Part shown: in pieces, positions 1 through 24,292 of the stretch
Layout of the letters: each line of letters opens with the position of its first letter
Position numbering within the stretch: the stretch's first letter is position 1
NCBI GenBank assembly: GCA_001969505.1
Contig: LSSK01000299.1
Location: forward strand, 1-40,127
From: Zancudomyces culisetae
Lineage: Eukaryota; Kickxellomycota; Harpellomycetes; Harpellales; Legeriomycetaceae
Direction: 5' to 3'
Length of the DNA: 40,127 bases
Notes under the pieces: generated by a model
Database searches by the model: none
What the model was told of the DNA's origin: nothing
Seen by the model: the letters and a program-made list of their open reading frames with translations, nothing else
Position numbers and translations under genes: made by a program

Positions 1-2
1 GG

Positions 3-923
3 CATCAAGTTGATGATGACTCTGAGGTCAAATCTACATGGCAAAACGGAGAATCGTCGGTGATTGTCAAAGAAACAGGGAGAACAGTTGTAAATGATAT
101 GAGAGTAGCAGATATGGTTTACGGAGGACAGGGAGCACCATTGACTTCATTCTTGGATGTTGTTTTATGTGCAGAGGAAGGAAGAACAAGAGCTTACCAA
201 AACTTGGGAGGAATTTCAAACACCACATTCGTATCAATGAAAAATGGAATAATCACAGCGTTTGCATTTGATCAAGGACCTTCAAACGTTTTGATTGATC
301 GCGCCGTAAGACACTATACTGGTGGACAACAACAATTTGATAAGGATGGTCAGATGGCATCTCGTGGTAAAGTTAACACAGAGTTATTGCAGGAGCTTTT
401 GCAGAATCCATACTACAAGAAACAGCTACCAAAGACCACTGGACGTGAGCTTTTTAGCGATTCGTATGCAGATGAGGTGATTAAGAGATGTGAAGAACTA
501 AACATGTCTCCAGATGATGTGGTTGCTACCATCACACAGCTGACAATAGACACAGTTGTTCAATCATACCACGATTTTATGCCAGAGCCAGTAGAGGAGA
601 TCTTTGTTCATGGAGGAGGAGGTTTCAATCCTGTAGTTATGGAAGGAATTAGAAAGGGACTGCCAAATACAAAAGTAACACTTTTGACAAAAGAAGAGTA
701 TGGATTACCAGCTTCATGCAAAGAGGCAGCAATGTTTGCACTTATTGGTCATGAATGTATACACGGCCGACCAGGTCAAATCCCATCGTGTACTGGAGCA
801 TCACAATATACAGTTCTTGGTAAGATCACACCAGGATCAAACTATCATGAGTTGATTCGCAAGATAGCACAAGAACCAGTTCAGAGCTTTGATAGAACTG
901 TCAAGTTGGTTATCGAGAAATAG
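3..923 (+). CDS. anmK: Anhydro-N-acetylmuramic acid kinase (AnmK), 5' end outside window
   Basis: Cytosolic-type ASKHA kinase that, in bacteria, opens the 1,6-anhydro ring of anhydroMurNAc and phosphorylates it to MurNAc-6-P. The frame is open from base 3 to the window edge, so the gene is cut; about 306 residues are visible against roughly 370-400 in the family, and the N-terminal MSGTSxDG motif must lie upstream. Visible family motifs in order: GGQGAPL, NLGGISNTT, FDQGPSNVLID, a DKDG..ASRG segment, KTTGRELF and HGGGGFNP. No intron is seen in the visible part. The product feeds the MurQ domain encoded about 1.6 kb downstream on the same strand. A bacterial-type recycling enzyme in a fungal setting suggests transfer (inference). 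Identification of the family is very secure; the biochemical activity in this host is inferred. Confidence 0.93.
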   Translation, partial: HQVDDDSEVKSTWQNGESSVIVKETGRTVVNDMRVADMVYGGQGAPLTSFLDVVLCAEEGRTRAYQNLGGISNTTFVSMKNGIITAFAFDQGPSNVLIDRAVRHYTGGQQQFDKDGQMASRGKVNTELLQELLQNPYYKKQLPKTTGRELFSDSYADEVIKRCEELNMSPDDVVATITQLTIDTVVQSYHDFMPEPVEEIFVHGGGGFNPVVMEGIRKGLPNTKVTLLTKEEYGLPASCKEAAMFALIGHECIHGRPGQIPSCTGASQYTVLGKITPGSNYHELIRKIAQEPVQSFDRTVKLVIEK

Positions 924-2568
924 TTTGGTCTAATTTGTGATTTTCATATAATTATCTGCATTGATATAATCCCATTTAGAAAATTTTCCTCTTTTTTCTT
1001 GATACCTAATAATTAGCTTATCAAATATAATCACATTATCATTTTTTGAATTCCATTTTTTTCTGCTCAAAATCGGGATACGATACATCATTTGATATCC
1101 CATAACTTTAATTTTATTCATTTTGTGCTGATGAAATACTTTTGAAATACTATTTTCGTGGTGTACATACTCGAAATACAAGCACTTACCAAAAATTCTT
1201 TGCAAATTAATAATGGAGTTCACCACTCCTTAGTAGGTAGTATTACTTTATTAATCAACAAACTCCTAAAGCTTTTGCCTGATTAACTTTGACTTTTGTG
1301 TAACAAGTTTAATGTGCCTTTACTCCTTAGCTTTTTGTTGAGAAGCACCTCCATAAAGATCATTCATAGTATGGAGTATATTCTGTGTTTTTTTTTGAGT
1401 TTGTGTAAAGGGTTTAAACTTTTTTTCTAGTCATTACCAAAGTATACATGACAGAATGAACTAGTTTCAGTTTTCTTACTTTGAAAAAATCATCTATAAT
1501 TGTTGGCCTGTAGTTTATTTCATTTGTGTTAGGGATGCACATTCAATTTAACTCTGGTACACCAAATTCCCTACACCTTCACAGAATTGAAGGCCTTAAA
1601 AAACCTCATCATTTTCTTTCTAGTCTCTACACCACCTTTTAGTAATTGCTCCTGGTTTAAATTTTAATTTATATTCAAACAAAGAATGGCGAGATGTTCG
1701 ATGCTCTGCTCGATTCACCTTTTCCTGAGACTTGTTGGGTAAGATGTGTTATGTCGAACTTCGGCAAGTCTTTTAATGTGGAAACAGCGATTTCCAACAC
1801 TGGGTATTAGGATCTGATGTTGTTTGTTAGGGCCTTGGTTCACTTGGTTTATTATCCGGATTTTATCTCGGTGCATAAATTCTTTTTGGCTATACATTCA
1901 ACTTTCCTTATCACGTAATCCGTTATTTCATTTTTTGTCACGCTATAACCTACCCCCTTCACATTCTTTACCCTTACAAGTGTTTTTTTTTTGCGCAAAA
2001 TATCTAACAATTTATGATTGCCAGATATCACTTTGGAAAAATGTTCGGCTGATTTACAAAAATCCATAATAACTATTACCAAATATATTTGTAATCTCCA
2101 CCAAAAAAAAAATAAACGCATTCATAAATTTGTTTCAGAATATACACAACCAATCTTTCATTTTCTTTTAATGGTCACAACAAAACATTAAAATAATGCT
2201 CCCATTAATTTCATTTGTTATACCTCATAATTTTTGGGCATGAACTTGTTGGATTTAATATGCAGCTTTTCAAGGTCGAATTAAATGTGGAAAAGGATCT
2301 TTTTTTGTCTTTCTGTAACAAAAATGTGAAATATGGGAAATTAAAAATCAAAGCAACGGGTTTATGTTTTTCATTTTTAATTGCAATTCCAATTACAATT
2401 CTAATTTTAACTGAATCAAAGATTTAAGTTTTTTTTTTACTGATCATCCTATATTTCCTCTCTTGATAATTATACCTATTTGAAATAAATACTACATATT
2501 TTTCACTAGAAAAAAAAGTATCCTTAAGCATTGAAAAAAGGAAAATTCAAACAAACAATAACGTAAAC
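924..2568. other. Intergenic, AT-rich, between anmK and murQ-nagK
   Basis: No convincing gene. The minus strand has three weak open frames (930-1226, 1715-1897, and 1852-2121 whose likely ATG leaves about 71 residues). None shows a recognisable domain. The last two overlap in different frames and could be a decayed coding relic, but this is weak. Just before the murQ-nagK ATG is an A/CAA-rich leader typical of a fungal 5' UTR. Confidence 0.5.
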
Positions 2569-4446
2569 ATGAGTGATCTAGTATCGGAAAGTCTCTCTGT
2601 GCTTAGTAAGCTTCGCACAGAGTCAAGAAACCCTCAGTCAATGGGAATTGACACAATGTCCACAAAGGAGATGCTTACTCTCCTCAACAATCAGGACAAA
2701 ACAGTTCCATTTGCCGTAGAATCAGTTCTTGATGACATCATTCGTGCTGTTGACGGAATTGCTGAAAGAATGGCAAAAGGCGGAAGGTTGTTGTATTTTG
2801 GTGCAGGTACTAGTGGAAGATTGGGAGTATTAGATGCTAGTGAATGTCCACCTACATACAGCACCCACCCAGACCAAGTGGTTGGAGTAATGGCTGGAGG
2901 TGACGAAGCCATCAGATCAGCTAAAGAAAATGTAGAAGATTCAGTTGAAACAGGAAGAGCGGACTGCGCAGCCTTAAATATAAGAGACGTGGACACAGTT
3001 GTAGGAATCGCAGCCAGTGGTCGTACGCCGTATGTAATTGGAGCACTTGACTATGCCAGAGAACAAGGAGCACTCACAATTGGGCTCTCAACAAACTCCT
3101 ACTCAATGCTTAAAGAGCACTCTGATATTCTACTCTCACCTGACGTTGGACCAGAGGTGGTCACAGGGTCCACTCGTATGAAGTCAGGCACTGCACAAAA
3201 GCTGGTTCTCAACATGTTGAGTACAGGAGCCATGATAAAATTAGGAAAGACATATAGCAATTTGATGGTTGATTTTAGACCAACAAATGAAAAACTTAGG
3301 ATGAGAGCTCCAAAGATTGTACGAGAAATAACAAATGTATCACAAGAAGAAGCACTAGATGTTCTAAGTAAATGTGATGGTGAAGTAAAGGTAGCGATTA
3401 TGAGTATATTGGCCAAGGTAGACCCCGAGAAAGCAAGAAATCTTCTCGCCAGCAATGGTGGTGTTTTGGCCAGAGCAATTGGAGCCGCCAGAGCAGCAAA
3501 CTCAACAGATACCGAGCACCCAGTACCAGTGTTGATGGTTACCGATGGAGGTGGAACCAACACCAGAGTCTTGCTGCTCAAGCTGGACGGAGAAGTAATT
3601 GGAGAGGGCATTGTTGGAAGCACCAACAACTCGACGGTTTCAATTGATGTGATCGTTTCTAGAATTGAAGAGGCTGTAGCTAAGGCTAAAGGTGAAAGAA
3701 GAGACTTGGCTATCAAGAAATGTTGGTTAGGCTTGGCCGGTATGGGTGAACAAACTAAAAGACGTGAATTGGCAGAAAAACTTAAGCATTTGGCACCTGA
3801 AGTTACTATTACATCTGATGTTGAACTGTTCTCATCCTCATTGCCCAAATCCACCGCTGATTCCCTATCAGTTTCCGTAATCGCAGGAACCGGTAGCTCT
3901 GTTTTGGGCGCTTTGGCAAATGGCGGAATTGATGTTTGTGGTGGCTGGGGTCCTGTTTTGGGAGATCAAGGCTCTGGAAATGCTCTAGGAACTGCTTGTA
4001 TCAAGGCTGTGTCAATGGACTTGGAGAAGGCTGGCCCCTCAACTAAAATGACAGATGCTGTATGCGCAAAATGGAACGCCAAAAAAAGACTTGAGTTTGT
4101 TAACTTTATCCGTTCCATGACTCCTGAAGCACAGAGAATTGAAATCTCAAGTCTCTCTAAAATAGTTCTTGAGTGCGCCTACGAGCAACATGACGAGATT
4201 GCCCTAAAAATTGTTGAAACTGAGGCAAGATGTCTTGCCAACTTTATCATTGCCTTGTTGAAACGAAATAACGCAAAATCAACTGACCTGGCTCTTGCTG
4301 GTTCTGTTATTGTCCGTTCTCAACAGTACCGCGATACTGTTTTGGGCCATGTTAGAGATGCCGGTTTCGTTATCAATTCGTGCCTTCTCGTCGACAGACC
4401 TGTCACTATTGCTGCAAAGTACCTTGTCGCCTCATATAACAAATGA
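2569..4446 (+). CDS. MurQ-NagK fusion: MurNAc-6-P etherase plus amino-sugar kinase
   Basis: Two-domain enzyme of 625 residues, single exon. Residues about 1-315 are MurQ: a SIS domain with GAGTSGRLGVLDASECPPT at 78-96, GGDEAIRSAKENVED near 110-124, the ASGRTPYV loop near 149-156, and TGSTRMKSGTAQK at 199-211, then the helical C-terminal module. Glu92 and Glu123 have the 31-residue spacing of the two acid/base glutamates of E. coli MurQ. Residues about 320-625 are a BadF/BadG/NagK-type ASKHA kinase: DGGGTNTR near 326-333, GLAGMG, IAGTGSSVLG near 438-447, GGWGPVLGDQGSGNALG near 458-474 and LAGSV near 576. The etherase removes D-lactate from MurNAc-6-P to give GlcNAc-6-P. The kinase could phosphorylate GlcNAc, or MurNAc as bacterial MurK of this family does; sequence alone cannot decide. 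With the upstream AnmK it forms a short peptidoglycan-salvage route. Confidence 0.95.
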   Translation: MSDLVSESLSVLSKLRTESRNPQSMGIDTMSTKEMLTLLNNQDKTVPFAVESVLDDIIRAVDGIAERMAKGGRLLYFGAGTSGRLGVLDASECPPTYSTHPDQVVGVMAGGDEAIRSAKENVEDSVETGRADCAALNIRDVDTVVGIAASGRTPYVIGALDYAREQGALTIGLSTNSYSMLKEHSDILLSPDVGPEVVTGSTRMKSGTAQKLVLNMLSTGAMIKLGKTYSNLMVDFRPTNEKLRMRAPKIVREITNVSQEEALDVLSKCDGEVKVAIMSILAKVDPEKARNLLASNGGVLARAIGAARAANSTDTEHPVPVLMVTDGGGTNTRVLLLKLDGEVIGEGIVGSTNNSTVSIDVIVSRIEEAVAKAKGERRDLAIKKCWLGLAGMGEQTKRRELAEKLKHLAPEVTITSDVELFSSSLPKSTADSLSVSVIAGTGSSVLGALANGGIDVCGGWGPVLGDQGSGNALGTACIKAVSMDLEKAGPSTKMTDAVCAKWNAKKRLEFVNFIRSMTPEAQRIEISSLSKIVLECAYEQHDEIALKIVETEARCLANFIIALLKRNNAKSTDLALAGSVIVRSQQYRDTVLGHVRDAGFVINSCLLVDRPVTIAAKYLVASYNK

Positions 4447-5252: not shown

Positions 5253-8200
5253 ATGGAGGATGTTTATGCTCGTAGTATATACCACAAATCAATTAAATCC
5301 ATTTATCAAAGAAATAAATCTTCGAAAATCGAGGATGAAATCACCCGCTCGACACCAAAATATGCTCCCGACACAATACTAGAGATTTCCCACATAGGTA
5401 TGATCTAACCCATTTATCTTTGCATTGTTGATTTTGACGGTGCAAATGCACACTTCTTTTTTTTGGCGAGAGTCACACGTCGTCGCATAGTGTTTGTTCA
5501 TCTTAATAGTACATAACCAACCCAATTATATTGGTAAACTATATTGGACTACTATTTCACTATAGATCTATATCTTGAAATAAGCCTGTATGATCAGCGT
5601 ATATTTGGCGAGGCTACATATAACATTGTACATAGACGCGAATGTTTATTGGCCAATGAGAACGAACGTTCACAAATCAAACTGAATGCAATTGATTTTA
5701 TCAGGGTCGATGTTATAGGAGAAAATATCAAGAGTTGGAGGTATGACGGCCACTTTATTGACATAGTATGGGGAAAATGCTTCGAGGGTGAAGAGTGTAG
5801 GGAGATTAGGATAAAATGGGAGGTAACTACGCCAATCAGCGGAGTCAACTTTCAGGTACCGAAGCCCGACAACCATTACTTGGATCAATCAATACTGGCG
5901 TTCACAGATAATAGCGATGAAAGGTATTTACTTTATTTTATTTTTCCCTCTTTTGGTGTTTTGCAGTATTGTACTTTGACTACTTGAGCGCGTAACATTA
6001 TTGATGAAGGGGAAACTATTGTCATATAATCGAAATAGTGCGCGGTACTATCTTCCATGTATTGACTATCCAAATAACCGCTCGACAATGAACATAACTA
6101 TTATTCATCAAGTTGATCATGAATGTGTTACTAGTGGGGTATGGCTTAATACCAGCGAAGTTTTAACCTTTGATAATATCCATATGAAGAAATCCGAATA
6201 TTTAGTTGACACACCTATTTCTGCATCTCAATTTGGGTTTGTTCTTGGAAAATTAAATAAACATTTTTATGAGGCTAGTGAAAGTGTAAAATTAGGATAT
6301 TATTATACAAAGGAAATCAAAAGAGAAGACATCGAGAAAACATTCTCAAAGACTTTGGAAATGATCAAATTTGTCTCGGATGTAATTGGGATCGAAGGTA
6401 GGTAATATCCCAGAGTGTGGGTTATAATGATTCTTTACTTGGCATTTTATTTGTATTAAAATGTATAAATAGGCGATTTTATAAAATATGACTATGCGAT
6501 TATTCCAAGAGCGAGATATACCTCTGAGGGGTCTAGCCTGTCAATCTACCCATCAACACTTTTGCTAGAGGCACAAACTACTGATGAGTTGCAAGAACGG
6601 TCAGAGTCATTTATTATATCTGATATCGCTAAATCTTATTTCGGAAATATGGTTGGAATTAATTATTTCGATAATATGTGGCTGAAAAACGGCTTTGCGA
6701 CATACTTCGAGTCGTTATGGCAGGGTAAAAACGACGAAAAGGACGAATTTGATTTTCACATGGTCATGGCGGCCAAAAGATACACCGAGGAGTGTACTGC
6801 TTACCAGAGACCTTTGGCATTCAATAAATATAGCAGTAGTGCTCAGCTTCATGACTATCACGGTTACGAGGGAGCAGCTTGGCGGGTACACATGCTTGAG
6901 CGAAGGTTGGGCAAGAACGTGTTTTGGAGTAGCGTAAAAAGGTTTCTGGTGGATAATCGAGGAACTTTGGTGGATACAGCGATGTTTAAAAGAGGGTTGG
7001 AGGCTGCAAGCGGAAAGTCCTTGGACAGATTCTTTGACGAGTTCGTTTATGGCGTAGGATATCCGCGAATAAGATGTCATCTCCAATATCAACCAAGCAA
7101 AGGGTTGGTTCAAATAACACTTGATCAAAGTAGCGATAGGATTAGAGACTATCCAATAGTTTGGTTTGGGTTCGATATTGAAATAGAACTTGTGGATTCT
7201 AGCGGAGGTTGCCATAGAGAAATTCTCAGTTTCGACCAAAACACAAGAGCCTTAGCTGTTATTCAGCTGCCTGAAGGCACACGACCATCTCATATATCTA
7301 TCGATCCAAATCTCAATATGCTCTTCACCCTAGAATTCAATCCTGGATTTGATCTGCTTTTGAATATGGCTGAGAGAGCAAGAGATGTTCGCTCCAGAAT
7401 ATTTGCCTATGAAACAGCCATAAAAAGTGGCTATCCAAATTTGTTACAGGCGGTAAAAATGAGGCTTAGAAATGAATCTCACTACGGAGTGCGTATGTTT
7501 GCAGGAAAGAGTTTGGCCAAGCTGCATTCCAGAGAGGCCCATGAGCTGTTATCGGAGCTGATTTCTACAGAAACTCATCCTATAGCTTTAGCGCATTTAT
7601 TTTCGTACTGCTCTTCGATCTCTTCGATATGTTTACTCCATTCCATTCAATCAAAAATCCTCGACCCGAGCCTCGGTCTTCACTCTCTTTCCAATGCATA
7701 TAATGCCTTAGGAAATCAGAAGCAATTCGACGGTTTTGACACTTTTTCAAACCTTTTGTCTCAGCGTATCCAGACATTATATACACATCCTTTGGTGCGT
7801 CGTGGATTGTTTGTGGGAATCTCAAAGGTTCCAGGCGAAAATCAAAGCCTTGGCTTTATACTGGATAGACTAGAGAACAGCGGGTTAGAGTGCACTAGGG
7901 TACTACCCTCTGTCATAAACGCCATTTCTCTATCTGCAAGAACAAGTTGTTCTGATAACAGACTATATACCCGTGCACTTGAGCTTTTAGGGAGCTTTTG
8001 CTTTCATAATGATGATTGTATCCGATGGGCCGCGTTTGATGCCTTATTTCAGTTGCAGGCGTTTGACAAGTATTGGCTCATGGAAACAGCAAAGAGAAGA
8101 CATTTTTCAGAACAGCTACATCCAATGTTGAACTCTGGAATGCTTTCCCTCCTAATCCCACAAAGCCAACAGGATATTTCTGCCTTGAATTCTATGTCTA

Positions 8201-8685
8201 CTCTTAACCCTTTGCACACAGTGATCAATGATTTGAAAAACAAAGTTTGGGATCTGGAGGTACGGCTAGAACAACACAATGCCATCTTAAATGCCGATTC
8301 CGAATCTAAGCTAAACCAGCTACGGCACCAATCACCGGCTCTTTCCCGCACCATTCCCTCAAATGCTCCCATACCCCGTCCTATCCCAACATCTCCATCC
8401 ACCTCAGCTTCAGCCTCACCTTCAGCCCGAACTTCAACTTTAACTAAGCCCAAAACTCCATCTCAGTCTCAGTCTCAGTCTCAGTCTCAGTTCTACCAAA
8501 AACAATCCATCGGGCATTCCTCGAGCCCGATTCCTATTCCTATGCCTTCACCGTCTACCAAACCTCAAGTTTCCTCCAATGAAAAAAACTTTGGAAATGA
8601 TTCGCTCTTTTGCTTCCCCAAATCGGGTACCCAGCCCTCTAAAATACAAGTACCCCCTTCATCTCTTAAACAAAGGAGGTTTTAA
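5253..8685 (+). CDS. M1-aminopeptidase-like pseudoenzyme with HEAT repeats and coiled coil
   Basis: Four exons: 5253-5397, 5566-5923, 6039-6397, 6473-8685 (introns 168, 115 and 75 bp); total 3075 nt, 1024 residues. Junctions rebuild family sequence, e.g. ISHI-DLYLEIS, TDNSDE-SARYYLPCIDYP and IEG-DFIKYDYAIIP. Order: M1 N-terminal beta domain, peptidase-like domain, C-terminal beta segment, HEAT-type helices, coiled coil near 865-905, and a Ser/Pro/Gln-rich tail. The HExxH-(18)-E site is destroyed: residues 337-341 read SDIAK and the distal Glu is Asn360; GAMEN is also lost. It should bind no catalytic zinc, so a scaffold or binding role is likely. Layout and the end in a coiled coil resemble bacterial M1-HEAT proteins; the eukaryotic relative with the same loss is TAF2, which remains an alternative. 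The intron-bearing structure shows it is a settled nuclear gene. Confidence 0.85.
8461..8490 (+). repeat. Hexanucleotide repeat (TCTCAG)x5 in coding sequence
   Basis: Five perfect copies of TCTCAG encode a Ser-Gln run in the disordered C-terminal tail of the M1-like protein. A length-variable microsatellite is likely. Confidence 0.8.
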
Positions 8686-10852
8686 AATCTATGCTTTTCG
8701 TGTAATTTTTTTATTTCGATGATCATTGCAAACCTTGAACCCTCCCACCCCTGTCCCATGCTTTGATATGATTTTGCAGTATTATTTATTTTACATTTAT
8801 ATTTACATACCTAGTACTCTTATTATTTATCTACAGCTTTAATAGAATTTAAAGAGAACGCCAGGTTATAATTGCTTATCAGTCTATTATTGCTAACGTA
8901 GTTTGACATTCTACACATTTTTTTGCCGCCAGACTGTGATCAAACCACTTTAGTTATGCAAGGGTGGTCATAAAATTTCCTGGAATGACACTACACTGTG
9001 TGTATTTGAGCACCATCATAGCTATCTTTCACTTATACCAATAGTGGCTCTATTAAATTTAAATTGATTATTGTTTCTGGCAATCTTGCCCTATAGAAAC
9101 ATCAATAAAGCTTGGTATTTTTTGATGATGTGATTTATTAAATTAATAAGTACACTAGACTGTTCTCCAAGTCAAGGTAGGTAAGACCTAATTCAAAAGG
9201 TGACAAATTTTGTGTGTTCAATCAGTGTTTAAAACGATTCGTTTGTGTATATGAACTGCTAATTTTTATTGTGGATACTTTCACTGTTCTAAACACTACA
9301 CTTTAAAGTTTCGATTGTTCCGATTTAGCTGTTACTTTGTAAATCCGATATTTTAGAAACGTTCAGCTCTTTCGTTGTTTATATTCTATGTATAAATTTT
9401 ACACTACACTAGTAGCACAGAAATATTTTTATAAGGAGTGAGGAGGAAAGAGTATTTCAATAGCAGCCATTTTAGAGTTGGTGGCTGAATGGTAATCTCA
9501 ATACATTTTCGATTATGGCAGTATTATGGAAATCGAATGCGATAAAGCGACTCAAGGTTATTCTTTTTTGTTTAATGTAATAACAATTGTTCACCAACAA
9601 TTCAAGGCGTTTCTTTTATTGCCTTCTTCCTTCTTTCCTCCCTTAATCAGCTTCCCCAAACATCAGTAATAAAAATGATACGTTCAACATTCAAAACACG
9701 AACGAATTGTTTTTGCGTTTCTGAAGCATAAACTTGCTTTTTTAAAAATAATAATAGTAATAATAATAAATAAAACTGGATAACAATTTATGTTTAAAAC
9801 GCGTATCTCTGTAATACCTAGTGGTACTATTTTCGGATATTATAATCCTGATTGAATTATGATTAATAGTGAGGCGCGAAGTTTAAATTACTTTGGATTG
9901 GTTTTCTACTGCCCAAAATGCAATGCTTATTCTTCTTTTTTTTATAAAAACACAGGATGAATCAATAAAAGGTGAAAGACAAGCATTACATCCTCATTTG
10001 TTGTAGGAAAAGCCCAATTGATTATAACACTATTTTTCGATTAACATTACCTTTATCTGAAAAAAAAGAAAAAAGAAAAAAATGTCACTGGTTTTAACCA
10101 TGATACTAGGACATTTTTTAGTTAAAAATGCACTTTACTCTTAAGAAATGATATTTAATAGCAATTCTTTTCTTTAACAAAAAGAAATGAACAATCTACA
10201 ATGACAGAGCATGGATTTTTAAAACAATCAAGCCAACTAAAACATGTTTTTTTAAACAAACAATAGACAATTGCTTTAATTCATTCTTTTTTGCTCGGAA
10301 TTAAAAAGCTGAGATTATGTCTTGCAAGTTTCCAAAGAAATAGACAATCGAAATAGATTCTCGGGAGTATATCCTTATATTTACACACAAAATGTCTAGT
10401 TTTTTTTCTTACATGTGTATAAACAATCGTGCTTTTTTATGTGCATCTTTGGATTCTCAAGAATAAGTTAAAATGTATTAACACCAGCATCTGCACTAGT
10501 ATCACATTGGTTCATAAATATTGGTACAGCTAAAACAACCAAATGTAATGGTGTTGATGCTAAAAAGAGTATTACAAACAGGTTTTGTTTTGTTTTTGTT
10601 TTAGGTTTAGTTTTAGCTTTAGTTGATTTTGTTTTTTTAGAAAATAAGTCTTGCATTTTAAACTATATCGTTGATTCTTTTATTCATTAAGCTCTTGGAT
10701 ATATTCAAATCGAAAAGACAAGATATAGAAACTTAAACTAGCATCCACTTTCTAAAATATATTAAAAATCCAAAGTAAAATCTTGAGTATTGATCTAAAT
10801 ATTATTTTGACGATATACATTACTACTAACACCTTTCTTAAATCGTATAATC
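8686..10852. other. Intergenic, 2.2 kb, AT-rich
   Basis: No supported gene apart from one weak small ORF on the minus strand (10468-10656, listed separately). Contains an AAT-type microsatellite near 9746-9774, poly(A)/poly(T) runs, and small palindromes such as CAGCCA..TGGCTG near 9464-9487. Confidence 0.5.
10468..10656 (-). CDS. Weak small ORF: lysine-rich head plus one membrane segment
   Basis: 62-residue frame on the minus strand with an ATG in an A-rich context. The head is Lys/Thr-rich (KTKSTKAKTKPKTKTK) and is followed by one hydrophobic stretch (LFVILFLASTPLHLVVLAVPIF). The layout resembles small tail-anchored ER proteins, but no family is recognised and the Lys/Thr part comes from T/G simple sequence, so it may be chance. 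Confidence 0.2.
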   Translation of the reverse strand: MQDLFSKKTKSTKAKTKPKTKTKQNLFVILFLASTPLHLVVLAVPIFMNQCDTSADAGVNTF

Positions 10853-12748
10853 ATGACAGCAAAAAACAAAAAAAGAACAAAGTCGAAGGTGACTGATAAA
10901 AGCTCAAAAAATTCAGAAATAAATAAGATTAAAAGCAGTTTAAACCCTGTTGTTGTTGAAAAAAGCATTGAGGAGATTGTTGAGCAAGCAAAAGATGTTG
11001 AAGATACAGAAAAAAACATAGAGGTCAAAGAACTACCCTCCGATGGTGTTAAATCAGCTGTGAGTTATGCTAAAAATGAGGAAAACCCACAACTTTCTAA
11101 AGCTAAAGAGAAAGAGATCGATACAAAAGCTAAAAGCAATGAAGTGTTAAATAAAATGGTAACCAGAAATAGGGATGAAGGTATCAATAGTTCGGACATA
11201 AAAACCCAAAAAGAAGTAAAGGTTACAAGTAAAAAACCAAGTAAAAAATCAAGTAGTAATGTTAAACTTAATGATGGCGCCAATGATGATAGCAATGAAA
11301 TGAGTGTTTTCACTGAAGAAATTGATGAAATGTCAAGAGAGAAGTTTAATGATATAGTGGACGCAGAGGAGGGCTTCAAGGGCATAAGCGGTTCTAATAC
11401 TAATATTCGCAACATCCTTGCAAAAAATGTGACACAAACATATGAAGATGCAGAAAGTGGTAGTTATGATGATAAATATTCCGATGATAACAGTATAAAT
11501 GGAAAGCTACAAAATAAATATGACCCAGACAGCGTGTTATCTCTTAATGAAAAGTCAAAAGAATTTGGTAACGACAAAATACCAAAAGAAAACATCGGGA
11601 CTAGTGAGAGCACAAATGAATCATTAAGTTCGCAGGATAGCATAAACTTAGCCGATGTATTAAAAGAGAAAAGACTCGAAAAGGCTACGACGTCTAACAA
11701 TTCTGGTGATGGAGTTGAAAACGAGAATAACAACGAGCCTCAACACAAAGAAAACATTGTCGAAGCTGAAGCAGAGGGTAAGGATAAAGTTTCAGACAAT
11801 GGTGGTGATGCTGATCAAAGTAGTGTTACCGAAAAACTTGCTAACATAAAACCCGAAGAAGTAAAAAAAGTCGAACAACTAATTTCTGGGAATGAAGAGC
11901 AAGATGGTAAGTCAGAACAACAACTAGACACAGAAAAAAACAAATCCAAAGCAGAACCGATTCAAATCAATGACAAAGGCACGGTCAAAGATACAGTCAA
12001 AGAAGAGGAGTTAAAGACAACCAAAGATACAGTAGTTGGGCAGAACAACTTAAAGATGTTAAAGTTTGACTTTGACCTCTCAAACTTTTCAAAGGAGGTA
12101 ACCGAAGGAAATAATAAAATCTTGAACAGCTATGGGGTTGTAGATATAGACGCAACACCTGCGAATGGCGTCAGTGCCGACACTTCCAAAGAAGCGGGTG
12201 TAAGCCCAGGTGTGGAATTCAGTGGATCTCAAAACCAATCATCTGGAGGTAAGCTGGGTAATTCAAATGACAAGCATAAGAATGCAAAGAGAGCATCTAT
12301 TTTCTCTAAACTCGGCGACATGTTCAGCTCCAAGTTTAAAATAAAAGGATTCAGAGGTTTTGATAATGTGTTTGGTAGGCATTCAATTCCAAAAACAAGT
12401 CAAACACCTGAACCATCTTCGTCTCGAATTGAACGGACAGTTCGAAACTCAACTCCTAATTTGCTCGCACATGCAACTGATGACAGCAAGAAAGGCAAAA
12501 GGCATCCTATTTTTTCCAAGTCACAGATGTTTTTTTCGGATATGGGTAAAGGGGACAGAAAGTCTGTGATCTCTCTCAAAAACTATAAACTGAAGGATAA
12601 AAAATCTGTTAGCCCAGATACAACTGAAAAAAAGGAGTTTAACCAGCTCGGGGGTTTATTGAGCTTTACTGGCGTTGGTACTGACTTCACTTCGGAGATC
12701 CGCCAGAATTTGCTAGAAAAAGACATTAATCTGTATGCCACAAAATAA
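10853..12748 (+). CDS. Large disordered charged protein, unrecognised
   Basis: Single-exon gene of 631 residues with an in-context ATG. About the first 450 residues are low-complexity and rich in Lys, Glu, Asp, Ser and Asn, with almost no predicted folded segment. The last ~150 are basic and Ser-rich, with short hydrophobic pieces such as RASIFSKLGDMFSSKFKIKG and a C-terminal LGGLLSFTGVG patch, which look like short linear binding or phosphorylation sites. No domain, signal peptide or membrane segment is recognised. Its unbroken length in AT-rich DNA makes a real gene very likely. It converges with the minus-strand gene ending at 13205. Confidence 0.75.
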   Translation: MTAKNKKRTKSKVTDKSSKNSEINKIKSSLNPVVVEKSIEEIVEQAKDVEDTEKNIEVKELPSDGVKSAVSYAKNEENPQLSKAKEKEIDTKAKSNEVLNKMVTRNRDEGINSSDIKTQKEVKVTSKKPSKKSSSNVKLNDGANDDSNEMSVFTEEIDEMSREKFNDIVDAEEGFKGISGSNTNIRNILAKNVTQTYEDAESGSYDDKYSDDNSINGKLQNKYDPDSVLSLNEKSKEFGNDKIPKENIGTSESTNESLSSQDSINLADVLKEKRLEKATTSNNSGDGVENENNNEPQHKENIVEAEAEGKDKVSDNGGDADQSSVTEKLANIKPEEVKKVEQLISGNEEQDGKSEQQLDTEKNKSKAEPIQINDKGTVKDTVKEEELKTTKDTVVGQNNLKMLKFDFDLSNFSKEVTEGNNKILNSYGVVDIDATPANGVSADTSKEAGVSPGVEFSGSQNQSSGGKLGNSNDKHKNAKRASIFSKLGDMFSSKFKIKGFRGFDNVFGRHSIPKTSQTPEPSSSRIERTVRNSTPNLLAHATDDSKKGKRHPIFSKSQMFFSDMGKGDRKSVISLKNYKLKDKKSVSPDTTEKKEFNQLGGLLSFTGVGTDFTSEIRQNLLEKDINLYATK

Positions 12749-20241: not shown

Positions 20242-22354
20242 AAATGGATTTATTTACGCCCAGAAGCTAACTACCACTTGATGAGCTTGCCAGATTACTT
20301 TGGCTCGGAACATGGCTGTATCACACCATGTAGTGTATTCCAGAAAATATTGTCGGAAAGAGTGTAAAAAAGAGTTGTTTATTGCGAAAAAATTCTATTA
20401 GGAGGTGGATGGGAGGAAGTTGTGGTGGAAATGAAGATTTGTGACTTTTTTTTTTGGTTGGTTAAACAAAAATAACCCAAAATACGTTTAGAGCTACACC
20501 ACACCACAAAGTTTGAATTTACGGGATTTATTTTATTTTATTAGGCTTTTTGTGCACTCTAATTATATCAGCTCCTTTTCCCACTTTCTATTCAATCTCA
20601 TCCAAGATTTTTTAATGCTTCTAATTGGAGTTTAGAAAAGTAAGATTGAGAAAAACTCTGACTGTCGAGGAAAAAAGAGCAAGTTTTTTTTTTTGGTGCA
20701 AGTTGAGTAACAATATTGGGTATTCATTGGCAGGGAATCCAAAAACGTTTGGCCCAATTCAACTCATAATTGCTGGCAAAGTCCAATTAAAATAAAATGA
20801 GAATAATAAATACAACAAATAAGGAATAGCAGCAAATCAAATTGCATTGTTAAAAAAAATCACAATCACTTACCAAAGCTACGATTATTATGTGTTTATA
20901 TGTAAATGGGAAGTATGTGCTGTGTTTGTATTGTAAAGTGAGGGCAAAAGTGAAGGTGGTGATTAAGATGTAGTGGCGAGGCAGAAGAAGAAAAAACCGT
21001 TGAGAAAGCGCGGTATTTGTGTTTAATTGTTGGGTTAAGTCAATTTCTCCTGTTCCCCCCAATCTTTACAAGAAAAAAAATTAAAAAAACAAAAGTATCA
21101 AACCAAAAATAAATAAATCAAAAGTGGTGATTTCGTGGGACCCAAAAGGAGCGGATTCACCTTTTCTCCCCTCCCCCCTCCCCGTCTTCCTCCACTTCAA
21201 TTTCCATTGCATCCGAATCAAAATATGTGATTACAGAAAAATATCACTAACATTCTATGATAATAGAATCAAAGTGTTCTATACAGTTTTAGTGAACTTG
21301 TTTTTGTTTATTTATCAATCAGAGTTAAAAGCGTGTTTGCGATAAAGTGGAAACCACACGCACAAAAAATGAAGATTGTTTCGATTTGGTTAAGAGTAGG
21401 AATCGTGTTTTTTGTATTATTATATATTCCATAAAAAAAATAAGCCATTCAAAACTCAACTAAAAGCCTGGAATTGCTAAAAGATAACAAAATATAGTCC
21501 AGGACAGTAACGTTTTAAGCATACAGTAAAGTGGTTGAATGTTAGAAAGTGAGGAAATGCCTAGTGGAAATATTGCTAGTTTTGCTAACAGAAAATTTGA
21601 GATTGACAAAATAAATGAAAAAAATGACAAATCTACATTTAATTCCTTACCAAAGTGGATTAAATATATTTAGCGCCATTTAGGTAATATGAAAACAGAA
21701 AAAAAAATAAACTGCAAACAACAATCGACTTGATTGTTAATGTGTATGTATCGCTTGCGAATTAAAAAAAAGGATGAATAAAAGAGGATAAACGTTACGA
21801 AAAAGTAATAAAAAAAAGAAATAGTGTTTATGAACTTGAAAAAAGCATTTGGTAAAACGAACAAAGTTACTCCCACACCTCAACGCAATAATATACTTTA
21901 AAGGTCTATAAGCTTGAAACAAAAAGCACTAATCTATAGAATCAATACGAAAATTTTACCTTGACATTACCCCTCCCACAACCCTCTCTTGATTTCGATT
22001 AAAGCATAATATACTATAGCATAACGCAGGTATTATCAAAGAATAAACATACAATTCAACGCCGTGGAATGAACGGGATAAGCACACTGATTCGAATTAA
22101 AATATTTGAGAAGTTGGTTATATAGCTGGGCGAATCCCAAAACTAATAAGAGAAAAAAAACATAAAGTTAAAGATATATTTATCTTTTAAATGGTAAACA
22201 GGGTAGGAAAAAAAAAGATAAACAGGATAGTACTTGATTCTTAGTGGTGATAAGGCCAGGACGAAAAAAAGTTTCTTTTTATACTGATTTATAATAGATA
22301 GAAAAAAGGAGAAAACGAGAAAGAAAGATAGATAAAAAACAAGATATATAGAAA

Positions 22355-24292
22355 ATGAATAAAAATAAGCTGCAAGAACAAGATGAGGATAATAGCCGGA
22401 CCTTGGAAAATAAGGCAGAAGGTACAGACCAGCTGATGTACGGGATGCCTTTTATAGGGGAGGGGAGTGGTGATAGAAGAGATAGACAATATATGCTGAG
22501 TCTGGCAGAGAAGGTGGTGTCAGATATAGAGGAAGACGAGCTACGGCGTATAGAGGAAGAGGAGCCAAAAGTAGGGTTTCGGAAAGAAAATGCAGGGAAT
22601 AAGAAGGCAAATAGGAGGTCATCGAATAGTATTGAGAGTGAAGGTAGAGGGGATTATGATAGACAATCGTATTTTTACGAAAATGGAGAGTCGACACAAT
22701 TTTTTGACACAAGATTATGGCGAAGAATTTCAAAGACACTTCCAAATGCAGTACGAGATCCGCTTGATTTCAATGAGTTGGAAAAGGACGAGATACAGAG
22801 AAATATGAATAAACGGGAAGTAGAAAGTGAAACGTCTAGCAGCCAACAGTTATATCCAATGGGATTGAGCTTGAGCAAAATTATACATCAAGACGGAGAG
22901 TGGTCTACGCAGGGAGGAGGGAGAGAGAAGGGGACAGGGCGAGTGATTCCAGGAGGGTTGACAGAGCGAGACTGGATGTATCTACAAGACCATAATCTTC
23001 GCAATGGGGGATTACCGACACTTGAACAGGTTTTACAAAAGAAAACATATGCACCGCTTTCGTTTAGAGACTTTGCAGTGCATTGTTCGGTGCGGCAGCC
23101 GGAGGCACGCAAATGGTTGGAGTTCTATTTGGCAGCAGTTGCGCATGAGAAGATGTGTATTTCGTACCAAAAGAAGAAGGAGCGAGGGGGAAGGGGGAGT
23201 AGAGAAAATGGACGGGATGAGGAATATGAGGACGATCGAGAAAGTAATGGGGAGAGAGTTGGGCGTAAAAAGACTAATGCAAGTCTTTCGAGCGAAGAGA
23301 AAAAAAATATGATGAAAGAGGTGTTACAGATCCAAGGAGCAGCAGAGTCGATCTTTTTGCGGTATTTCCGGGCGGCACTGATTCCAACAGGACAAACTGA
23401 GTGGGACGAGACAGAGAAAGAAGGGTTTGGGGGTGGTAGTAAAAAAAAGTTGGCGTCAGAGATGAGGCGGATGTTTAACCGACCAATAGAGTTTATGTCG
23501 AATGCACTTGCGGTTGGCGGAAGACCTACAGTGACACTAGGGCCAGGCGGACAAGATCCGAATGCACGGTTTATCCATATGAACGACCGGAGCAAGTATA
23601 TGTCGGAAAAACAACTCCCGTATGGATTTGGGGGAGGAGAGTTTGACCGAATGGGACGACAAAAGTCGATGTATAAAAGTCAGGTGATATACTACATGCC
23701 TTGGCCACCTGAAATCCTCTCCAAAATCGAGCTGCAACTGTCACGTGGAAATGCCAGTCTGGATCCTCACCTGTTTTCCGAGGCTATCATGTATGCCTAT
23801 GAAATCCTTGATGTATACTACTTTACTGTCTTTGTCCGTGAAGGCACTTCCCGCAACGTCACCCACGCCCACTGCGTTATCCGTGTTGCCTTTGCCTGTC
23901 TGTTGCTTCTGTTTGGCTTTTGCTATCCTCTGACTTTAATTCTCTCCGATGCCTCGCCCATTGTCAACCGCCTGTGGTGCATAATCCCACTTCTGGTTGG
24001 TTGGTGGAATATGGGTGTTGGTTTCAGTGGTGCTGATCTTTTGCTGAGCTTGACCTCTAAATATCAGTCTCCTGTTCCCAAAACCCAATCTGGTAAACCT
24101 GGTGGTGGTTTAGGTTATCGTGGTGCCAGCTGGAAAAACGCCTGGTTTTCTACCCGAAACAGTATTGACCGCACTGCCACAAGGATGGTCTATATAAACA
24201 GTTTGAAGTGGTTTTCTGTCAGTATGTTGTTTGCTGTCATTTGCTGTGTCATTTTATGCTCTGTTCCTGGAAGAATTATTTATACAAACTAG
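22355..24292 (+). CDS. Rax1-like protein: split RGS domain plus three membrane segments
   Basis: Single exon, 645 residues. An acidic disordered head (1-200) is followed by an RGS domain from about residue 215: PTLEQVLQKKTYAPLSFRDF, then RKWLEFYLAAVAHEKM. The domain is interrupted by charged low-complexity inserts and resumes at GAAESIFLRYFRAAL and HLFSEAIMYAYEILDVYYFT (to about 492). Three hydrophobic segments follow at about 505-530 (VIRVAFACLLLLFGFCYPLT), 537-566 and 617-641. This order matches fungal Rax1 (bud-site selection, with Rax2), which is a membrane protein with an atypical RGS domain. In this organism it would mark membrane or polarity sites; G-protein GAP activity is uncertain. 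Codon use shifts to more C/G in the membrane part. It is tail to tail with the Kv channel gene, 82 bp apart. Confidence 0.8.
   Translation: MNKNKLQEQDEDNSRTLENKAEGTDQLMYGMPFIGEGSGDRRDRQYMLSLAEKVVSDIEEDELRRIEEEEPKVGFRKENAGNKKANRRSSNSIESEGRGDYDRQSYFYENGESTQFFDTRLWRRISKTLPNAVRDPLDFNELEKDEIQRNMNKREVESETSSSQQLYPMGLSLSKIIHQDGEWSTQGGGREKGTGRVIPGGLTERDWMYLQDHNLRNGGLPTLEQVLQKKTYAPLSFRDFAVHCSVRQPEARKWLEFYLAAVAHEKMCISYQKKKERGGRGSRENGRDEEYEDDRESNGERVGRKKTNASLSSEEKKNMMKEVLQIQGAAESIFLRYFRAALIPTGQTEWDETEKEGFGGGSKKKLASEMRRMFNRPIEFMSNALAVGGRPTVTLGPGGQDPNARFIHMNDRSKYMSEKQLPYGFGGGEFDRMGRQKSMYKSQVIYYMPWPPEILSKIELQLSRGNASLDPHLFSEAIMYAYEILDVYYFTVFVREGTSRNVTHAHCVIRVAFACLLLLFGFCYPLTLILSDASPIVNRLWCIIPLLVGWWNMGVGFSGADLLLSLTSKYQSPVPKTQSGKPGGGLGYRGASWKNAWFSTRNSIDRTATRMVYINSLKWFSVSMLFAVICCVILCSVPGRIIYTN

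Follow-up and report, generated by a model that had tools for sequence, protein, structure and literature searches.

A putative bacteria-derived route for muramic acid salvage in the fungus Zancudomyces culisetae

The sugar muramic acid is a hallmark of bacterial cell walls, and fungi make no peptidoglycan. Escherichia coli recycles 1,6-anhydro-N-acetylmuramic acid (anhydroMurNAc) by way of AnmK and MurQ, and the recovery of peptidoglycan sugars in Bacillus subtilis is laid out as NagZ-AmiE-NamZ-MurQ; each step of the route considered below is known in bacteria. The available portion of PMC13204101 describes the bacterial NagZ, NamZ, MurQ, NagA and NagB steps and places NagZ and NamZ outside the cell in B. 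subtilis. Camponotini ants provide a eukaryotic case, having acquired murQ from Mollicutes according to the accessible part of PMC13320244, which calls this transfer previously unreported. Here we describe an AnmK-family gene and a gene fusing MurQ to a sugar kinase at the start of a 40,127-nucleotide stretch of the fungus Zancudomyces culisetae (contig LSSK01000299.1). This stretch, hereafter the window, is an entire contig (C602, 1-40127) of the 859-contig, 23.1 Mb genome that we searched.

We propose, with a probability of about 0.72, that the two window genes are long-resident genes derived from bacteria that serve the salvage of peptidoglycan amino sugars. The initial annotation had already suggested salvage of muramic acid, and this suggestion is supported and strengthened by the finding of NamZ, NagZ, NagA and NagB in the same genome. 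The gene set resembles that of E. coli in that AnmK and MurQ would converge on N-acetylglucosamine 6-phosphate (GlcNAc-6-P), but E. coli acts on its own wall, whereas the fungus has no peptidoglycan of its own, fuses a kinase to MurQ and possesses glycosidases of secreted type. It resembles that of B. subtilis in that NagZ and NamZ of extracellular type would feed the MurQ route, with a NagZ of the same architecture of about 640 amino acids (aa). It differs in being fungal, in its unlinked genes, in the presence of AnmK and in the lack of any match in the genome to PF00144, which we take to be the AmiE-type family; the fused kinase stands in place of what is presumably a phosphotransferase-system importer in B. 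subtilis. As in the Camponotini ants, a bacterial murQ would be fixed in a eukaryotic nucleus, although the ant case, in the accessible part of its description, concerns one gene only, which is neither fused to a kinase nor accompanied by NamZ and NagZ.

The features of the two genes are as follows.

3..923, + strand: AnmK-family 1,6-anhydro-sugar kinase, 306 aa (PF03702, 247 bits, cut-off 24); 5' end lost at the contig end
270..272, + strand: GAT codon for the conserved Asp in FDQGPSN, which aligns with Asp182 in AnmK of P. aeruginosa
2569..4446, + strand: fusion of a MurQ etherase and a MurK/NagK-type kinase, 625 aa, complete, no intron (TIGR00274, PF01869)
2602..3486, + strand: MurQ (N-acetylmuramic acid 6-phosphate etherase) domain, residues about 12-306
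2842..2844, + strand: codon for Glu92, which aligns with the glutamate in ECPPT of MurQ
2935..2937, + strand: codon for Glu123, which aligns with the glutamate in GAED of MurQ
3523..4443, + strand: BcrAD_BadFG sugar-kinase domain (MurK/NagK type), residues about 319-625
3817..3819, + strand: codon for the invariant Asp417 in the kinase half

Both halves of the fusion protein were recognized with confidence. The first half scored 385 bits with TIGR00274, the N-acetylmuramic acid 6-phosphate (MurNAc-6-P) etherase model, exceeding the equivalog cut-off of 302, and the second scored 81.3 bits with PF01869, over the cut-off of 31.5. As first annotated, the gene lies on the same strand as AnmK, about 1.6 kb away (the gap is 1,645 bp), and neither it nor the portion of AnmK present shows an intron. 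The structure predicted for the fusion protein (mean predicted local distance difference test score, pLDDT, 91.7) matched MurQ best with its first half and, by Z score, MurK of Clostridium acetobutylicum with its second. Glu92 and Glu123 are invariant in the aligned fusion relatives (42 aligned sequences out of the 120 matches listed), and both match the alignment to MurQ in the PDB; their counterparts are presumably Glu83 and Glu114 of E. coli MurQ, which we take to be catalytic. In the kinase half, D326, D417 and the GTGS motif are invariant in the same relatives, and we infer from the kinase family that Asp417 is catalytic. The known N-acetylmuramic acid (MurNAc) kinases of C. acetobutylicum (MurK, 8zo3) and Tannerella (MurK, 8oqw) are single-domain proteins with 21% and 17% identity to the fungal kinase half, whereas bacterial fused MurQ-kinase proteins (Gemmataceae among the few named) have the same domain order and length and are mostly 39-46% identical.

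One alternative is that the fusion protein acts as an N-acetylglucosamine (GlcNAc) kinase whose MurQ domain is vestigial or regulatory in the manner of GKRP, and that NagZ, NagA and NagB recycle chitin, so that the genes would serve chitin and GlcNAc turnover only. The kinase half does resemble NagK as well, the MurQ domain additionally matches the Pfam family GKRP_SIS_N, and NagA, NagB and GH3 enzymes would suit the use of GlcNAc. The kinase half reached 92 bits against the equivalog cut-off of 370 of the NCBIfam model NagK_SO3507 and, by this score, is not a NagK of that type. Against the alternative stand the etherase score of the MurQ domain, the conservation of both glutamates in all 42 aligned sequences and the presence in the genome of a NamZ with both domains, a family annotated as muramidases. 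We consider it distinctly improbable.

The AnmK gene, placed by the initial annotation at the very start of the window, was readily confirmed there (PF03702, 247 bits). Its 306 residues align, at 68% identity, with positions 110-415 of the Furculomyces orthologue (P0122, 416 aa), so the fragment lacks about 109 residues at the N-terminus. Extension upstream had been suggested, but the window starts at the contig start, and a search of the assembly with the full-length Furculomyces AnmK found the window fragment only and not the missing N-terminus. None of the 14 NCBIfam AnmK models was over its cut-off (best 304.5 bits against 387) with roughly a quarter of the protein missing. The Asp of FDQGPSN (column D199 of P0122) is shared by 97% or more of the rows, and the residue aligned with it, Asp182 of P. 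aeruginosa AnmK, is presumably the general base.

The residence of these genes in the fungal genome could be questioned, because intronless genes with bacterial relatives at one end of a contig might be bacterial contamination joined onto it. The closest matches of the MurQ-kinase protein, among the best 120 of 6,754, are from Smittium simulii, S. culicis, Furculomyces, S. megazygosporum and S. mucronatum (57-60% identical); the remaining 114 of the 120 are 39-46% identical, none with a fungal name and most without any organism name. Similarly, among the best 120 of 4,451 AnmK matches, the closest are six entries from the same five Harpellales species (62-68% identical), and 113 others are at most 51% identical, Ktedonobacter being the first named. 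Remoter fungal homologues may occur below the matches listed for either protein. Codon use of the window genes correlates with that of fungal genes of the same genome at r 0.84 and 0.87, and that of the fungal genes among themselves at 0.79-0.88. The comparison is a weak test, since murQ of Clostridium gave r 0.83 and that of Neobacillus 0.77, and an AT-rich bacterium would be compatible with it. Because the genes occur in five other Harpellales, with a divergence consistent with the order, and because eukaryotic genes follow downstream on the same contig, contamination is disfavoured; we regard it as barely conceivable. Long-standing residence in the fungal genome is thus supported by the sequence comparisons, in agreement with the fungal nuclear locus first proposed. 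The two genes do not form a conserved cluster in the four Smittium species: in S. simulii, S. culicis, S. mucronatum and S. megazygosporum (four of the five other species), AnmK and MurQ-kinase are on separate contigs, as judged from the differing sizes of the longest contigs listed, and the Furculomyces entries comprise two contigs each.

Phylogenetic analysis, which the initial annotation had named as a check, placed both proteins among bacterial sequences. In the careful trees of both MurQ and AnmK, the six Harpellales sequences form a single clade (support 100/100), and in the MurQ tree the window sequence branches outside the other five (85/67, not marked as well supported). The careful MurQ-domain tree, in which 91 of 115 rows were kept (five long or odd rows and 19 of the 29 fused proteins were left out), put the Harpellales beside Gastranaerophilales (92/83) and outside the bacterial fused proteins; for the quick tree, 29 fused proteins had been taken from the 114 listed outside Harpellales. 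Joining the Harpellales MurQ with bacterial fused proteins was not rejected by the approximately unbiased (AU) test (p 0.36-0.38); in the second of two such tests the constrained group was mixed, including a true fusion (L004) and three unfused loci with a stop between the domains (L003, L005 and L006). We therefore dropped Gastranaerophilales as the MurQ donor, the link having been marked as well supported in the quick tree (95) but not in the careful one (92/83) and the AU test allowing the fused group. Ktedonobacter was likewise dropped as the AnmK donor, its support falling from 96 in the quick tree (89 rows chosen from both sets of matches and the bacterial loci) to 84/24 in the careful tree, which left out 14 of the 89.

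The bacterial loci came from an alignment scan in which the best 80 of 575 confirmed stretches were taken; a single-protein scan of genome contigs for relatives found none. Of the 80 loci, ten in which a kinase adjoins MurQ were checked: one was a true fusion (L004) and nine had a separate kinase gene directly after MurQ. Because such neighbouring genes exist in bacteria, a fusion made in the fungus is possible, an inherited bacterial fusion being equally open. A donor with adjacent murQ and kinase genes may have given rise to the fungal fusion, independently of those in bacteria, and either one or two fusion events are possible on the trees. AnmK lies near MurQ in ten of the 80 loci. In three of planctomycetes (L005, L014 and L022), a kinase stands beside MurQ and a short AnmK follows soon after on the opposite strand, but these AnmK proteins are just 27-31% identical to the Furculomyces protein, and no joint transfer is inferred from this low identity. 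Two separate sources for AnmK and MurQ-kinase seem likely from these comparisons.

What the AnmK-family enzyme phosphorylates requires separate consideration. It could be a levoglucosan kinase that converts 1,6-anhydroglucose to glucose 6-phosphate and has nothing to do with peptidoglycan, in which case muramic acid would be handled by MurQ-kinase only. Several observations weigh against anhydroMurNAc as the substrate. The best PDB match is the levoglucosan kinase of Lipomyces, against which the Harpellales AnmK scored 363 bits, versus 185 bits for a bacterial AnmK of known structure, and a joint clade of Harpellales AnmK and levoglucosan kinases was not rejected (AU test, p 0.24). Fungal proteins named AnmK are used as levoglucosan kinases in the available part of PMC9476349, where several of the six proteins tested had activity near the empty-vector control. 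On the other hand, at 20 alignment columns that separate 17 sequences of the levoglucosan-kinase clade from 10 AnmK sequences of bacterial loci, the Harpellales proteins are AnmK-type at 11, levoglucosan-kinase-type at 2 and neither or tied at 7; the window covers 16 of these columns, with 10, 1 and 5, respectively. Most of these AnmK letters are also present in Chloroflexota-type sequences, so the AnmK-type residues are partly an ancestral state. The Harpellales are apart from the levoglucosan kinases in free trees, falling among Chloroflexota-type sequences in the quick tree and still with Ktedonobacter in the careful one. The levoglucosan kinases of Lipomyces and other Dikarya (4zfv, 4yh5) are homologous fungal relatives of AnmK, but the Harpellales lack most of the residues specific to them and form a clade of their own. 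Because MurQ, the next enzyme, is found in the same five species and in the window, we rank anhydroMurNAc ahead of levoglucosan as the favoured substrate, and regard the levoglucosan alternative as unlikely, though of real weight. The Dikarya levoglucosan-kinase clade (P0241-P0360) also includes many metagenome proteins of 371-395 aa, 76-79% identical; these may be of bacterial origin, and in that case genes would have passed between fungi and bacteria.

The initial annotation had suggested that further members of the set might lie just upstream of the window. When ten families were searched across the genome, such members were indeed found, but on other contigs: NamZ on C565, NagZ on C789 and C273, and NagA and NagB on C676. 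With nagZ, namZ and the window genes on different contigs, there is no nagZ-amiE-namZ-murQ cluster of the Bacillus type. NagZ is a GH3 enzyme that scored 530 bits with Bacillus NagZ (3bmx) over residues 5-635 of 636 and keeps the KHFPGHGDT (His/Asp) and TDAxNM motifs; its neighbours are a CAP59 mannosyltransferase gene and a Gfo/Idh oxidoreductase gene. The two stretches, C789:7000-14988 and C273:1-7988, both with NagZ and the fungal CAP59 gene, are 99.57% identical over 7,990 bp and are probably haplotypes of a diploid kept apart in the assembly. NamZ has both of its domains (NamZ_N, 232 bits; NamZ_C, 167 bits) and scored 195 bits with PDB 4k05. NagB (C676:16737-17405; L087:1480-2379) scored 403 bits with TIGR00502 (cut-off 236.9), and NagA, about 3.3 kb from it, 215.8 bits for its main exon (cut-off 225.65). 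The NagB protein belongs to the long type, and its best solved match, at 405 bits, is 1ne7, presumably human GNPDA1; a GH17 glucanase-type gene adjoins it (C676:18112-19392; L096:1212-2492). Glucosamine_iso matches on C115 and C438 were rejected as NagB, being 6-phosphogluconolactonase. Codon use among the six pathway genes correlates at r 0.61-0.88, and at 0.23-0.74 with three bacterial murQ genes and 0.35-0.72 with the CAP59 gene; NagZ and NagB both favour C-ending codons and AAG, which may reflect high expression.

Two aspects of this gene set count against a complete pathway of fungal genes. NamZ is the pathway gene whose fungal residence is least secured: its contig is 15 kb long with 30% G+C (34-37% in the other stretches fetched) and 3,459 bases of N at one end (C565:1-3459), and NamZ has one neighbour there, a weak 7TM-like match (7tm_1, E 0.0086). 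In addition, the initial annotation had suggested that an amidase might lie nearby, but GH25, Amidase_2, PF00144, NLPC_P60, Amidase_3 and GH24 were not found in the genome by a search that intron-rich fungal genes could escape; the same families were positive in 3, 6, 9, 9, 8 and 3, respectively, of 14 control genomes, all of them prokaryotes. As the tested amidases were not found, we hypothesize a dependence on amidases of the insect gut or of bacteria.

The route that we propose would begin outside the cell, where secreted NagZ and NamZ would clip GlcNAc and MurNAc off the glycan strands of dead or digested bacteria, with stem peptides removed by host or bacterial amidases, and a carrier would import the freed sugars. 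The kinase half of the fusion would phosphorylate MurNAc, and probably GlcNAc too, at O-6, and the MurQ half would cleave MurNAc-6-P at its D-lactyl ether, releasing D-lactate and leaving GlcNAc-6-P. AnmK would provide a second entry, converting anhydroMurNAc released by bacterial lytic transglycosylases directly to MurNAc-6-P. GlcNAc-6-P could then be converted by NagA and NagB to fructose 6-phosphate and ammonia, or could enter uridine diphosphate (UDP)-GlcNAc and chitin; the presence of NagA and NagB makes its catabolism at least as likely as chitin synthesis. The identity of the genes, the location of the window genes and NagZ in the fungal genome, the intact catalytic residues, the co-occurrence of the genes and the order-wide conservation of the window genes are observed, and to these the route adds secretion, substrates, uptake, flux and benefit by inference.

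The same enzymes might instead have a role unrelated to feeding, namely dulling of the immune sensing of the host through destruction of muropeptide sugars, or antagonism of gut bacteria. The starts of NamZ and NagZ are short hydrophobic stretches that by eye resemble signal peptides, and the ant murQ transfer is read as antibacterial in the accessible part of PMC13320244. By contrast, neither the fusion protein nor the Furculomyces AnmK has a signal-peptide-like start by eye, such enzymes act on free sugars and so would yield nutrients rather than killing, and GH24, GH25 and the tested amidases were not found in the genome. We think such a role improbable and retain salvage as the preferred reading. 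A broader version of it, in which the gut-fungus order built a complete extracellular-to-cytosolic pathway for peptidoglycan sugars from several bacterial donors, relied on insect amidases and lysozymes and possibly made the fusion independently, seems to us an evenly balanced proposition.

The rest of the window, which has 36.5% G+C overall, appears from its gene content to be eukaryotic. The nearest neighbour is the following gene.

5538..8685, + strand: peptidase-M1-type gene, spread over several open frames (Peptidase_M1_N 5980-6402, Peptidase_M1 6469-8682)

It is most simply read as an intron-bearing gene with putative introns; the statement that neighbours have introns thus agrees with the splitting of this gene into several frames, although the introns seen are candidates, none proven. 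Its identification as TAF2 was dropped, as only M1-family peptidases matched, and weakly. Further downstream are genes for an ankyrin protein, an ion-channel protein and a mitochondrial carrier. No Pfam match at E 0.001 was obtained for two open frames, each about 645 aa long (22352-24292 and 10811-12748, both + strand), which lie in or beside stretches with strong base skew.

No description of a route degrading muramic acid in a fungus was found in the literature searched, as far as the texts were accessible and excepting the tables of PMC11708051, a catalogue of horizontal gene transfer in fungi whose text, tables aside, names Harpellales only in the reference list. Relative to this literature, the pathway set in a fungus, with kinase and etherase in one protein, is new. 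The fungus most probably lives as a symbiont in the gut of insect larvae, and Zancudomyces can be cultivated, according to the available part of PMC12611240. If our proposal is correct, the fungus turns muramic acid of bacterial walls into a building block of chitin or into energy. This would help to explain how obligate gut fungi use bacterial wall debris, would tie the digestion of bacteria by the insect to the chitin and nitrogen supply of the fungus, and would offer a culturable system for testing how a eukaryotic microbe uses bacterial walls.

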